Of a DNA stretch of 64,000 nt, positions 57,453 through 63,047 are shown piece by piece. The stretch spans positions 516,419-580,418 of the forward strand of contig NZ_VYIX01000001.1 in assembly GCF_009755885.1 (NCBI RefSeq), read 5' to 3'. A model generated the notes under the pieces. The model did no database searches, had not been told where the DNA came from, and saw only the letters and a list, made by a program, of their open reading frames with translations. Positions within the stretch are counted from its first letter, which is position 1, and each line of letters begins with the position of its first letter. This stretch comes from Brachyspira sp. SAP_772. GTDB taxonomy: Bacteria > Spirochaetota > Brachyspiria > Brachyspirales > Brachyspiraceae. A program made the translations under genes and the position numbers.

Positions 57453-57483
57453 TTGCAATATTATTAGAAGTATTATATAATAC
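57453..57483 (+). promoter_or_regulatory. sigma-70-type promoter of the ilv cluster
   Basis: TTGCAA (57453-57458) and TATAAT (57476-57481) are 17 bases apart. The -10 lies in a perfect 14-base palindrome, GTATTATATAATAC. Transcription should begin near 57488, just before the leader's ribosome site. Confidence 0.6.
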
Positions 57484-57513
57484 TATAAAAATAAGATAAG
57501 GAGAAGATGAATA

Positions 57514-57588
57514 ATGAAGTCATTTTTCACACATTTCAATCAAATTAGCATATCTATTATTCTCCTATCTCTCATTATTATCCTGTAA
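57514..57588 (+). CDS. branched-chain amino acid leader peptide (24 aa)
   Basis: The frame from ATG 57514 gives 24 residues: MKSFFTHFNQ then ISISIILLSLIIIL, with seven Ile and four Leu in the last fourteen. AAGGAG (57498-57503) precedes it. This is a classical sign of attenuation control by branched-chain aminoacyl-tRNA, and the gene behind is ilvB. An overlapping ATG seven bases earlier gives only a short unremarkable frame. No Val codon occurs. The mechanism differs from the enteric one because no intrinsic terminator is visible downstream. Confidence 0.78.
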   Translation: MKSFFTHFNQISISIILLSLIIIL

Positions 57589-57708
57589 AGTTTTTATCAT
57601 AACAAATTACACACACAAAAAATAAAACAAAAAAATAATAAATTATATTCTGTTATATTTGTATATATTTTTGCAATACTATATTTCAGTAGATTTTAGG
57701 AGATTTTT
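57589..57708 (+). other. ilvB leader RNA, G-free stretch and no visible terminator
   Basis: From 57591 to 57651 the plus strand contains no G, is C/A-rich (ACACACAAAA) and looks unstructured, as expected of Rho-loading (rut-like) RNA. I see no GC-rich hairpin with a U-run before the ilvB ribosome site (AGGAG, 57698 area). Confidence 0.45.
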
Positions 57709-59382
57709 ATGCAATTGAATGGTTCAGATATTTTAATTGAAGTTTTAATAGAGGAGGGGGTTGACACTGTATTTGGTTATCCGGGCGGAGCTGCTTTAAA
57801 CATATACGATGCTATTTATAAATATAGAGATAAAATAAAGCATATAATGCCTGTTGATGAGGCAGGTGCTTGTCATGCTGCTGATGGATATGCAAGAGCC
57901 AGCGGAAAAACAGGCGTTGTAATTGCAACAAGCGGACCGGGAGCAACCAACTTAGTAACACCATTAGCTACAGCATATATGGACAGTGTGCCTTTGATTG
58001 CTATTACAGCAAATGTACCTACAAGTTTGATAGGTAAAGATTCTTTCCAAGAGGTTTATATTGCCGGAATAACAATGACCATAACAAAACATAATTTTGT
58101 TGTTAGAGATATTAATGATTTGGCTAATACAATTAGAAAAGCTTTTTATATAGCAAATACTGGAAGAAAGGGACCTGTTTTAATAGATATACCAAAAAAT
58201 ATAACTATAGCAGAAACAGAATTTGTAAGCAAACAAAAAATTACTCCAAAACCAGTTCAAATAAGTTCTGAAGATGAAAACACAATAAAAGAAGTAGCAA
58301 AATTAATAAATGAGTCTAAAAAGCCTATTATATATTTTGGGGGCGGAGCTAAAGATTCAAGCGATAAATTAAGAGAGTTTATGATTAACTCTAATATACC
58401 ATCGGTTCATACATTAATGGGGGCTGGTGTATTGGGCTATAATGAAAAATTGAATATTGGCTTACTCGGAATGCATGGCTCTGCTACTGCTAATAAGGTT
58501 ATGAATGAAGCTGATTTAATACTTGCTATAGGCACAAGATTTAGCGACAGAGTTGCTTTGAACACTTCCAAATTTGGTGGTGGAGCTAAAAAGGTGCATA
58601 TAGATATTGACAGAAGTGAGATTAATAAAAACGTTAATGTTGATTATAGTATAATAGGCGATTTGAATGATGTATTAGATAGATTTAATAAACTTGTAAA
58701 AAGAGTGAAAGATGATGAATGGGTAAAATATTTATCTGATTTAATATCAAAAGAAAAAGAGGAAGATATTAAGAGAAACACAAATAAAGACGGCATTTAT
58801 CCTAGTAGAGTTATGAATATAATAGGCGAAAAAACTAAAGATGCTGCTATATATGTTACCGATGTAGGTCAGCATCAGATGTGGGCTGTTCAATATATAC
58901 GCCATACTAAGCCAAGGAGCTTTATAACTAGTGGAGGCTTGGGAACTATGGGATTTGGATATGGTGCTTCTTTAGGTGTTCAGGTTGCTAAGCCAGATAG
59001 AAGAGTAATTCATATAACAGGTGATGGTTCTTTTTATATGAATTTAAATGAAGTGTCTACTGCTGTTGAATATAATTTACCTATTATAAGCATAATACTT
59101 AATAACAGCACATTGGGTATGGTAAGACAATGGCAAACTATATTTTATGAATCTAGATATTCAAGCACTGATATAAATAAAAAAATGGATTATGTGAAAG
59201 TAGCTGAAGGTTTTGGAGCTAAAGGTTTTAGGTGTGAAACTATAAGCGAATTTGAGAGTGCTTTTGAAGAGGCATTAAAATGTAAATGTCCTGTTTGGAT
59301 AGAATGTGTTATAGATAAAGATTTGAGAGTTTTACCTATGATACCAGCAGGCGGAACAGTAGATGATATAATAGTAGATTAA
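57709..59382 (+). CDS. ilvB: acetolactate synthase large (catalytic) subunit
   Basis: IlvB condenses pyruvate (or pyruvate with 2-oxobutyrate) to begin valine, leucine and isoleucine synthesis. The three TPP-enzyme domains are complete: the N-terminal PYR domain with the TPP-contacting Glu in MPVDEAGACHAADGYARASG, the central FAD-binding region (IYFGGGAKDSSDKL), and the C-terminal PP domain with the TPP/Mg motif GDGSFYMNLNEVSTA and NNSTLGMVRQWQ. Length 557 is normal. AGGAG precedes the ATG. It is the first enzyme gene of the ilv-leu cluster behind the Ile/Leu leader peptide. Confidence 0.97.
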   Translation: MQLNGSDILIEVLIEEGVDTVFGYPGGAALNIYDAIYKYRDKIKHIMPVDEAGACHAADGYARASGKTGVVIATSGPGATNLVTPLATAYMDSVPLIAITANVPTSLIGKDSFQEVYIAGITMTITKHNFVVRDINDLANTIRKAFYIANTGRKGPVLIDIPKNITIAETEFVSKQKITPKPVQISSEDENTIKEVAKLINESKKPIIYFGGGAKDSSDKLREFMINSNIPSVHTLMGAGVLGYNEKLNIGLLGMHGSATANKVMNEADLILAIGTRFSDRVALNTSKFGGGAKKVHIDIDRSEINKNVNVDYSIIGDLNDVLDRFNKLVKRVKDDEWVKYLSDLISKEKEEDIKRNTNKDGIYPSRVMNIIGEKTKDAAIYVTDVGQHQMWAVQYIRHTKPRSFITSGGLGTMGFGYGASLGVQVAKPDRRVIHITGDGSFYMNLNEVSTAVEYNLPIISIILNNSTLGMVRQWQTIFYESRYSSTDINKKMDYVKVAEGFGAKGFRCETISEFESAFEEALKCKCPVWIECVIDKDLRVLPMIPAGGTVDDIIVD

Positions 59383-59403: not shown

Positions 59404-59931
59404 ATGAATAATAAACAAAGAAGGGTTTTAGTTTTATTTGTAGATAATAGTTCTGGGGTATTAAACAGAATAACTTTATTATTTAGTCAAAAGGGTTTTA
59501 ATATAGAAACTATTACTTGTTCTGTAACTTGTGTGCCTAGCATATCAAGAATGACTATAGTTACAGAGGGAGATGATTTACATATTACACAGATTATGAA
59601 GCAAACTTCTAAACTTATAGAGGTTCATTCTGTTCATTTGATAGATCATTGTAATAGTATAATAAGAGATTTATTATTAGTAAAAATAGAAATAGATGAT
59701 TCTAATAAACGCAGAGTTTGCGATATCACTAATGCACATAATGGTCTTATACTTGATATAGGAAGTAGGAGTATGATAGTTGAAATTACAGCTTCTGCTT
59801 CTATAATAGACGGTTATTTAGAGGCTTTAAAAGATTTCAATATATTAGAGCTTTCAAGAACGGGAGTAACATCTATACAGCTGGGCGATGATGTTCCTGA
59901 TATGAATATAATAAACAATTTTGAGTTTTGA
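59404..59931 (+). CDS. ilvN: acetolactate synthase small (regulatory) subunit
   Basis: The 175-residue protein starts with an ACT domain (RRVLVLFVDNSSGVLNRITL then FSQKGFNIETITCS), followed by the second ACT-like domain of the long IlvN/IlvH form (LVKIEIDDSNKRRVCDITNA onward). It activates IlvB and mediates feedback inhibition by branched-chain amino acids. It follows ilvB by 21 bases, with AGGAG before the ATG. Confidence 0.95.
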   Translation: MNNKQRRVLVLFVDNSSGVLNRITLLFSQKGFNIETITCSVTCVPSISRMTIVTEGDDLHITQIMKQTSKLIEVHSVHLIDHCNSIIRDLLLVKIEIDDSNKRRVCDITNAHNGLILDIGSRSMIVEITASASIIDGYLEALKDFNILELSRTGVTSIQLGDDVPDMNIINNFEF

Positions 59932-59971: not shown

Positions 59972-60994
<1,023 letters not shown>

Positions 60995-61101: not shown

Positions 61102-61294
61102 TTGCAGGGCTTTGCCCCGCACCCCAGTTCTTTTACGACCGAAGGAAGTGCCTGTGGTATTGGTATAAAAGAACCAAAAGAACTGCATTTGATAATAATT
61201 TAATAAATCATATTATATATAAAAGATAATTTATATTATTTATATATACTATTTTGCACTTTTTGGTTCTTTTTGCTGCGGGAAAAAGAACAAG
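61102..61294 (-). repeat. structured repeat family 1, copy R4 (inverted orientation)
   Basis: Read on the minus strand it matches R1 to R3 in order: H1 is GTTCTTTTT/AAAAAGAAC, H2 GTTCTTTTA/TAAAAGAAC (with a long variable loop), H3 GCGGGGC/GCCCTGC. H1 and H2 differ from R1/R2 by compensated base pairs. It separates ilvC from leuA within the ilv-leu cluster. The rest of 60995-61370 is AT-rich and I see no gene or terminator in it. Confidence 0.82.
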
Positions 61295-61370: not shown

Positions 61371-62867
61371 ATGAGAAAGATTAAAATTTTTGATACTACT
61401 TTAAGAGATGGAGAGCAGTCTCCCGGTTGTACTATGAATTTGGCTGAAAAATTAGAGATGGCAGCTGAATTAGATAAATTAGGCGTTGATATAATAGAAG
61501 CAGGTTTTGCTATATGTTCTGATGATGATTTCAATGCTATAAGAGAAGTAAGCAAGGTTGTAGAAAATGCTAAATTGGCTAGTTTGGCAAGATGCAACAA
61601 AAAAGATATAGACAGAGCTTATGAATCTCTTGCTGAGGCAAAACACCCTATGCTTCATACATTTATAGCTACAAGTGATATACACTTAAAGCATAAATTA
61701 GAGATGACCAGAGAGCAAGTATTAGAAACTATAAAAGAATCTGTTTCTTATGCTAAAACCAAATTTGAGTTTATAGAGTTTTCTGCTGAAGATGCATCAA
61801 GAAGCGATAGAGAGTTTTTAGCTAAGGCTTATTCTGTTGCTATAGAAAACGGTGCTACTACTATAAATGTTCCTGATACTGTTGGATATACTACTCCTCT
61901 TGAAATGGCTGACTTAATAAAATATTTAAAAGAGAATGTTAAGGGCATAGAGAATGTTGATATATCTGTGCATTGTCATGATGATTTAGGACTTGGTACT
62001 GCTAATTCTTTGTCTGCAGTGTTGGCTGGTGCTACTCAGGTAGAATGTACTATTAACGGTATAGGTGAGCGTGCTGGTAATGCTAGTTTAGAAGAGATTG
62101 TAATGGGCATAAAAACAAGAAAAGATTTTTATAATGCATACACTGATATTAACACTAAACGCATTTATAAAGTGTCAAAATTATTATCTACAATTTCTGG
62201 TATGGTGGTTGCTCCTAATAAGGCTATAGTGGGTGCTAATGCTTTTGCACATGAGGCTGGTATTCACCAACATGGTGTATTAAAAGAACGTTCTACTTAT
62301 GAGATTATGAATGTTGAAGATATAGGAATACCTCAAAATAAAATGGTATTAGGTAAACATTCTGGTAAACATGCTTTTAAAGATAGAATTGAATCTTTGG
62401 GTTATGACATTGATGATAAAGCTTTAGAAGATAAGTTTGTAGAGTTTAAAGCTTTGGCAGACAAGAAAAAAGTAGTTACAGATTCTGACATTGAAGCATT
62501 ATTGATAGGAAACACAAATATAGAAAACCCTACATACACATTAAAAAGCTTTATGGTTAATGACAGTGATTCAATATCTTCTTTTGCTTCTGTATCTATA
62601 ATTGACAATAAAGACAATGTTGTTGAGGCTATAGGTAAAGGAAACGGACCTATTGATGCGGCATTTGGAGCTATTGACTCTGTAACATCAAATAGAGCTA
62701 AATTGGTTACATATACTATTAATGCTATTACTGAAGGCGAAGATGCTTTGGGAGAGGTTATTGTAAGACTTGCTTCTGATGACAAAACAGTTATTGGAAG
62801 AGCTGTAAGTACTGATATTATACAGGCAAGTTTGATGGCTTATATTAATGGTTTGAATAAATTATAA
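61371..62867 (+). CDS. leuA: 2-isopropylmalate synthase
   Basis: LeuA condenses acetyl-CoA with 2-oxoisovalerate, the first committed step of leucine synthesis. The HMGL-like barrel shows FDTTLRDGEQSPGC at the N-terminus, IIEAGFAICSDDD, SVHCHDDLGLGTAN (metal-binding) and NGIGERAGNASLEE. The C-terminal leucine-feedback domain (about 385-498, NPTYTLKSFMVNDSDSISS onward) is complete. Length 498 is normal. AAGG lies eight bases before the ATG. It is followed by a terminator and then leuC. Confidence 0.96.
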   Translation: MRKIKIFDTTLRDGEQSPGCTMNLAEKLEMAAELDKLGVDIIEAGFAICSDDDFNAIREVSKVVENAKLASLARCNKKDIDRAYESLAEAKHPMLHTFIATSDIHLKHKLEMTREQVLETIKESVSYAKTKFEFIEFSAEDASRSDREFLAKAYSVAIENGATTINVPDTVGYTTPLEMADLIKYLKENVKGIENVDISVHCHDDLGLGTANSLSAVLAGATQVECTINGIGERAGNASLEEIVMGIKTRKDFYNAYTDINTKRIYKVSKLLSTISGMVVAPNKAIVGANAFAHEAGIHQHGVLKERSTYEIMNVEDIGIPQNKMVLGKHSGKHAFKDRIESLGYDIDDKALEDKFVEFKALADKKKVVTDSDIEALLIGNTNIENPTYTLKSFMVNDSDSISSFASVSIIDNKDNVVEAIGKGNGPIDAAFGAIDSVTSNRAKLVTYTINAITEGEDALGEVIVRLASDDKTVIGRAVSTDIIQASLMAYINGLNKL

Positions 62868-62964: not shown

Positions 62965-63047
62965 TAAGTTTTAGCTAAAAATGCAGCCTTTTTGCTTCTT
63001 TGCGGCAGCAAAAGAAGTGGGGTGCGGGGCAAAGCCCTGCAAATAAT
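62965..63047 (+). repeat. structured repeat family 1, copy R5 (3' half only)
   Basis: It begins at the TGCAG segment and carries H2 (CTTCTTT-GC with GC-AAAAGAAG) and H3 (GCGGGGC/GCCCTGC). The 5' part with H1 is missing. It lies between the leuA terminator and leuC. Confidence 0.75.

Follow-up and report, generated by a model that had tools for sequence, protein, structure and literature searches.

A conserved Ile/Leu-rich leader peptide before ilvB in Brachyspira: a candidate for attenuation without a terminator

How might a short reading frame crowded with isoleucine and leucine codons control the acetolactate synthase gene behind it, if no terminator separates the two? The question is raised by the DNA upstream of ilvB in the window, by which we mean the whole 64-kb stretch of Brachyspira sequence analyzed here. 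An earlier note had described a promoter, a ribosome site, and a 24-codon peptide with 11 Ile or Leu residues among its last 14, all of which are confirmed, position by position, ahead of ilvB. It had proposed that ribosomes stalling on the Ile/Leu codons either shield a Rho-loading site or change ilvB translation. Ile/Leu leader-peptide control of some kind very probably operates here; below we consider how it may reach ilvB. The features concerned all lie on the + strand and are listed first.

57453 to 57481, +, promoter: -35 TTGCAA, 17-nt spacer, -10 TATAAT (consensus match 10/12)
57498 to 57505, +, leader Shine-Dalgarno (SD) with extension, AAGGAGAA, read from the sequence
57498 to 57503, +, SD core of the leader, AAGGAG, read from the sequence
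57514 to 57588, +, leader peptide ORF MKSFFTHFNQISISIILLSLIIIL: ATG at 57514, 24 codons plus TAA, homologues in 24/24 genomes
57544 to 57585, +, putative sensor tail ISISIILLSLIIIL: 11 of 14 codons Ile/Leu, codon use compared with 45 ORFs of the window
57562 to 57566, +, CTCCT, candidate anti-SD in the codons for Leu17-Leu18, complementary to the ilvB SD
57591 to 57651, +, G-free spacer of 61 nt, one of 43 such runs and judged no special element
57698 to 57702, +, ilvB SD AGGAG, read from the sequence and kept in 24/24 genomes
57709 to 59382, +, ilvB, acetolactate synthase large subunit: neighbours and length agree; first gene of the putatively controlled cluster
59404 to 59931, +, ilvN-like gene for the small subunit, 21 nt behind ilvB, called by size, sequence, and gene order
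59999 to 60994, +, ilvC-like ketol-acid reductoisomerase, called by sequence and gene order

The leader in the window and across the genus

The leader ORF is separated from ilvB by a spacer of 120 nt and is more than a chance occurrence. Both strands of the whole window hold 17 SD-preceded ATG ORFs of 14 to 70 codons, among which the runner-up has 6 Ile/Leu codons in its last 14. In 20 simulated 64-kb sequences no ORF had 11 or more (the maximum was 8). The promoter match taken alone is no better than those in shuffles; its -35 and -10 elements are kept in place ahead of the leader in nearly all of 24 Brachyspira genomes.

Our search of the genus covered 26 genomes, 25 of which carry ilvB, 24 of these with readable upstream sequence. 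A homologous leader ORF of 24 to 52 codons occupies the same place before ilvB in all 24. Its N-terminus is divergent, and indels of whole codons preserve the frame, while the tail is conserved among the 24 genomes as an Ile/Leu(/Val)-rich sequence of the form NILLSI..NIL(L). A sequence model of this tail gives one strong match per genome (E 1e-12 to 3e-6), always at ilvB, and next-best matches of E 0.0035 or worse (about 3e-3). Five of these weaker matches were read out as possible second copies, and none is a leader. There was no strong match in the genome without ilvB, where the best (E 0.012) lies antisense to a coding frame, nor in the one whose ilvB runs off the contig end. Likewise, no leader was seen before ilvD in the Brachyspira loci read (one masked and one truncated upstream), or before the leuA-like gene that begins at 61371 in the window. 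A Brachyspira genome of reduced size (G019; 2.0 Mb) lacks ilvB, ilvD, and the leader alike.

To judge from sequence comparison, the leader belongs to Brachyspira. No convincing equivalent turned up in 40 ilvB upstream regions taken from elsewhere in the phylum and the family, and among clostridial relatives of ilvB a few have upstream ORFs rich in branched-chain residues, none of which resembles the Brachyspira leader. A second genus of the family has ilvB behind ilvD, and here an ORF rich in Ile, with a good SD (MLFKIKKNVSLKKEIINIILDIILKIILQSKIIQ...; L081:590-740), starts after ilvD and overlaps the start of ilvB in a different frame. It may, on the strength of this single genome, be a functional relative of the Brachyspira leader.

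Could the frame be non-regulatory, i.e., a small membrane peptide gene or a chance ORF? The tail is indeed hydrophobic, but the rare codons in it are fixed (see below), it occurs at a single site that is always before ilvB, it is absent from the genome without ilvB, and its N-terminus is unconserved. We thus assign this possibility a very small probability.

Two observations concern the surroundings of the cluster. An exact GC-rich repeat, GGGCTTTGCCCCGCACCCC, flanks the leuA-like gene in opposite orientation (61107-61125, +, and 63019-63037, -) in a region of otherwise 28% GC, and resembles a dispersed repeat of intergenic DNA. Outside the family, most of the closest relatives of ilvB in the collection of named genomes come from clostridia (50-59% identity), a pattern that would suggest ancient gene transfer.

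Rare codons at fixed positions

The earlier note had asked whether the peptide frame and its Ile/Leu codons recur in other species. Frame, tail peptide, and specific codons are all conserved across the 24 genomes, and this comparative evidence supports reading the leader as a sensor of Ile and Leu. The codons themselves are unusual. The reference set comprises 45 window ORFs; in it, Leu is encoded by TTA (55%), CTT (24%), TTG (14%), CTA (4.6%), CTC (2.4%), and CTG (0.5%), and Ile by ATA (63%), ATT (34%), and ATC (4%). The 126 Leu codons of the 24 leaders comprise 51 CTC, 24 CTG, 20 TTA, 17 CTT, 13 CTA, and 1 TTG, and their 154 Ile codons 108 ATT, 34 ATC, and 12 ATA. The common ATA is thus avoided, ATT and ATC making up 142 of 154 Ile codons versus 37% in the reference. 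The tail in the window uses the rare Leu codons CTC, CTA, CTC, and CTG, and all but one of its Ile codons (an ATA) are ATT or ATC.

More than a general bias is involved, since particular codons hold particular places. Wherever the LL pair has Leu as its first residue (23/24 genomes), the codon there is CTC; the final Leu codon of the conserved tail (57583-57585 in the window) is CTG in 24/24, followed in some clades by an extra TTA. Synonymous divergence is zero at both positions in the 22 genomes comparable across ilvB; among 30 invariant Leu columns of ilvB in these 22 genomes, one has zero codon divergence, and it uses the common TTA. The invariant CTG has no evident pairing partner.

The 34 tRNA matches in the genome include a single Leu tRNA for each of the anticodons CAA, TAA, TAG, and GAG, plus one for Ile (GAT). 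Taken with the codon bias, this set implies that decoding is shifted away from the tRNAs that read TTA/TTG and ATA. Codon bias of this kind tunes enteric attenuators (PMC1183508), and the leader bias fits the pattern expected if selectively charged isoacceptors tune the sensor here. The tail would then probably sense a shortage of these amino acids through a stalled ribosome.

One could stop at this point and take the rare codons as sensors only, responding to selective tRNA charging, with translational coupling or mRNA stability as the output and no specific pairing. The enteric type of tuning just cited (PMC1183508) speaks for this, as do the invariant CTG without an SD partner and the codon-permuted control described below, in which composition alone suffices. 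Sensing, however, does not need codon identity fixed by position (CTC at the first Leu, CTG at the last, the second Leu free), and the fixed place of each rare codon asks for more than sensing alone. We therefore regard the sensor-only explanation as quite improbable.

From the leader to ilvB: pairing, Rho, or both

As the earlier note had it, no intrinsic terminator lies behind the leader; this is borne out both in the window region and between leader and ilvB in 24/24 genomes. T-boxes are absent at gathering score in the window and at E <= 0.001 in the whole of its own genome, and covariance models of ilvB-OMG and the other Rfam ilv motifs gave nothing relevant, even with E allowed to rise to 5; no other Rfam family matched either. 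With no terminator behind the leader, the switch most likely acts on ilvB translation.

A possible means of doing so lies within the sensing codons. The ATT-CTC-CTN codons of the tail yield CTCCT, and in the window a 7-bp complement, TCTCCTA (57561-57567) with TAGGAGA (57697-57703), is available to the ilvB SD; it is found in five of five genomes of the window clade. CTCCT itself is present in 21 of 24 genomes, two have CTCTT (G-U pairing kept), and GTCTT stands in its place in one of the two deepest. For the window sequence, the ilvB SD is predicted to be paired to the leader tail with a probability of about 0.95 per base. Across the genus, the mean predicted cost of opening the SD is 3.9 kcal/mol if the tail lies exposed (folded without the 5' leader) and 1.9 kcal/mol if it is masked, as by a stalled ribosome; recoding the tail in common codons gives a mean of 2.3 kcal/mol. 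In the subclade of L017, L020, and L021 and in L019, exposure of the tail raises this cost little, if at all. The complementarity of tail and ilvB SD is thus real and extends through the genus, and it may be the selected function. Compensatory covariation is not seen because CTCCT and SD are both nearly invariant.

A control tempers this picture. Permuting codons among the positions of each amino acid within a leader left SD sequestration mostly as strong as observed; sequestration therefore follows from the C-rich codon choice, and the control strips most of the statistical support from a specifically ordered anti-SD.

In the chain of events that we infer (leader translation, stalling, SD sequestration in vivo, and the direction of the response alike), a ribosome would translate the leader and, with Ile-tRNA and Leu-tRNA charged, reach its stop and depart. 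CTCCT would then be exposed and could pair with the ilvB SD, leaving little translation of ilvB and an mRNA that Rho and nucleases can attack. Under shortage of Ile or Leu, the ribosome would stall on the tail, made sensitive by rare or selectively read codons, and cover CTCCT, so that the ilvB SD stays free and ilvB is made. The geometry is compatible with these steps: CTCCT ends 20 nt ahead of the leader stop, so with a typical footprint a terminating ribosome would just uncover it, and ribosomes stalled at most Ile/Leu codons of the tail would cover it. We give about even credence to ribosome-mediated attenuation of ilvB(NC) that acts on translation initiation. Of the two routes in the earlier note, altered ilvB translation is the better fit, as the regulatory codons carry CTCCT against the ilvB SD. 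A bolder proposal, held tentatively at somewhat less than even confidence, gives the rare Leu/Ile codons two tasks at once, the sensing of charged tRNA and the role of anti-SD for ilvB. Amino acid supply would then control translation initiation with no need of a terminator, and the tail might toggle between the two SDs, that of the leader and that of ilvB.

The toggle is raised by a second complement. GGAGAA (57500-57505), part of the leader SD region, also matches TTCTCC of the tail and is kept in 23 of 24 genomes (GGGGAA in L004). Between the tail and the SD of the leader itself, 7-9 contiguous bp can form in most genomes, a match as good as or better than that with the ilvB SD, and full-length folds often favour this pairing. 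The tail might hence chiefly pair with its own SD (AGGAGAA:TTCTCCT) and block re-initiation once the ribosome has left, so that leader occupancy sets ilvB expression. Such a role would account for a contiguous helix that exceeds the one with the ilvB SD, and for the retention of GGAGAA downstream of the SD core though it lies outside the 16S-complementary consensus. It offers no direct route to ilvB, on which occupancy would have to act via mRNA stability, Rho, or coupling; moreover, the helix is mismatched in one subclade and in L019, and two SDs necessarily share complements, such that the pairing may be a by-product. We deem this explanation improbable.

The other route of the earlier note was a Rho-loading site in 61 C/A-rich bases without G behind the leader. 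The stretch is there, but it is no special element: the window holds 43 G-free runs of at least 55 nt (11 on the + strand, 32 on the -). Its bases include 8 C, YC dimers number just 2, and relatives preserve neither the length nor the C content of the stretch. Such an ordinary stretch with almost no YC dimers leaves the Rho-site reading weak, and we rejected it as a special feature. Rho is nevertheless encoded in the genome and so remains a rival: a stalled ribosome would shield a Rho-loading region and prevent termination before or inside ilvB. The missing intrinsic terminator agrees with this, and for most genomes the best 78-nt segment of C over G around tail and spacer ranks among the highest 1-5% of the background taken from the window. 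Furthermore, E. coli topAI provides a case in which control at the level of translation is coupled to control by Rho (PMC12121999). Against it, besides the ordinary G-free stretch with its 2 YC dimers, stand a C-over-G excess that reaches no more than the top 16-20% in the two Brachyspira genomes that branch deepest (both retain the leader), and a spacer after the leader that is C-poor in all clades. All in all, Rho-dependent transcription attenuation seems rather unlikely as the primary switch; by analogy with what is proposed for topAI (PMC12121999), Rho termination is perhaps a downstream effect of poor ilvB translation.

The spacer has clade-specific traits of its own. The main clade (L006-L022, e.g., L007) has a conserved small hairpin, TTTCTA-NNNN-TAGAAA, before ilvB, which the window clade does not have, and a conserved GGCTATAAAA-like stretch ahead of the ilvB SD.

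Relation to known leaders and significance

Leader-peptide control of amino acid operons has been described mainly in proteobacteria, actinobacteria, and Firmicutes and usually involves a terminator, as in the ilv leader attenuator of E. coli; in the erm and cat leaders, ribosome stalling brings about translation attenuation. The latter and toiL-topAI of E. coli sense antibiotics, whereas the signal of the Brachyspira leader would be Ile/Leu shortage, with the regulatory codons themselves containing the candidate anti-SD. In the model proposed for toiL-topAI, a ribosome stalled on the upstream ORF frees the ribosome-binding site of the gene behind it, and Rho termination is a secondary effect (PMC12121999).

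The closest system in idea would be the actinobacterial LEU element upstream of leuA (PMC1262725). Like the Brachyspira region, it has a leader ORF with a run of Leu codons, and a terminator is not required; it differs in gene (leuA versus ilvB), phylum, and sequence. The Leu codon run of the LEU element is predicted to pair with the SD of the biosynthetic gene; for Brachyspira, complementarity and folding speak for such a pairing in most clades, though not beyond what codon composition gives. A conserved pseudoknot joins the base-stem arms of the LEU element, and mutation data cited in the same paper argue against the Leu codons acting (PMC1262725). Terminator-type ilv leaders can be considered functional relatives, including those of Corynebacterium ilvBNC (the ilvB-II motif; PMC10272879) and Staphylococcus ilvD (PMC5794164), both leader-peptide attenuators with terminator and antiterminator. 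They share with Brachyspira a short branched-chain-rich ORF before ilv genes and the sensing of charged tRNA by stalling (which would hold here as well), but the terminator/antiterminator that they have is found in none of the 24 Brachyspira leaders.

No spirochaete case surfaced within the open-access literature searched, in agreement with the earlier note, and terminator-less leader attenuation in this phylum is apparently undescribed so far. What is new here are the rare codons at fixed positions of the tail. A genus-wide case of this kind would carry the leader-peptide mechanism into a further phylum and, if true, offer a small natural system for testing whether codons that sense can also act as an anti-SD. 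Because the fixed codons are nearly absent elsewhere, the tRNA-charging explanation of attenuator bias also becomes testable in a very AT-rich organism. For Brachyspira, which are gut spirochaetes, the leader stands before the genes that make isoleucine, leucine, and valine.
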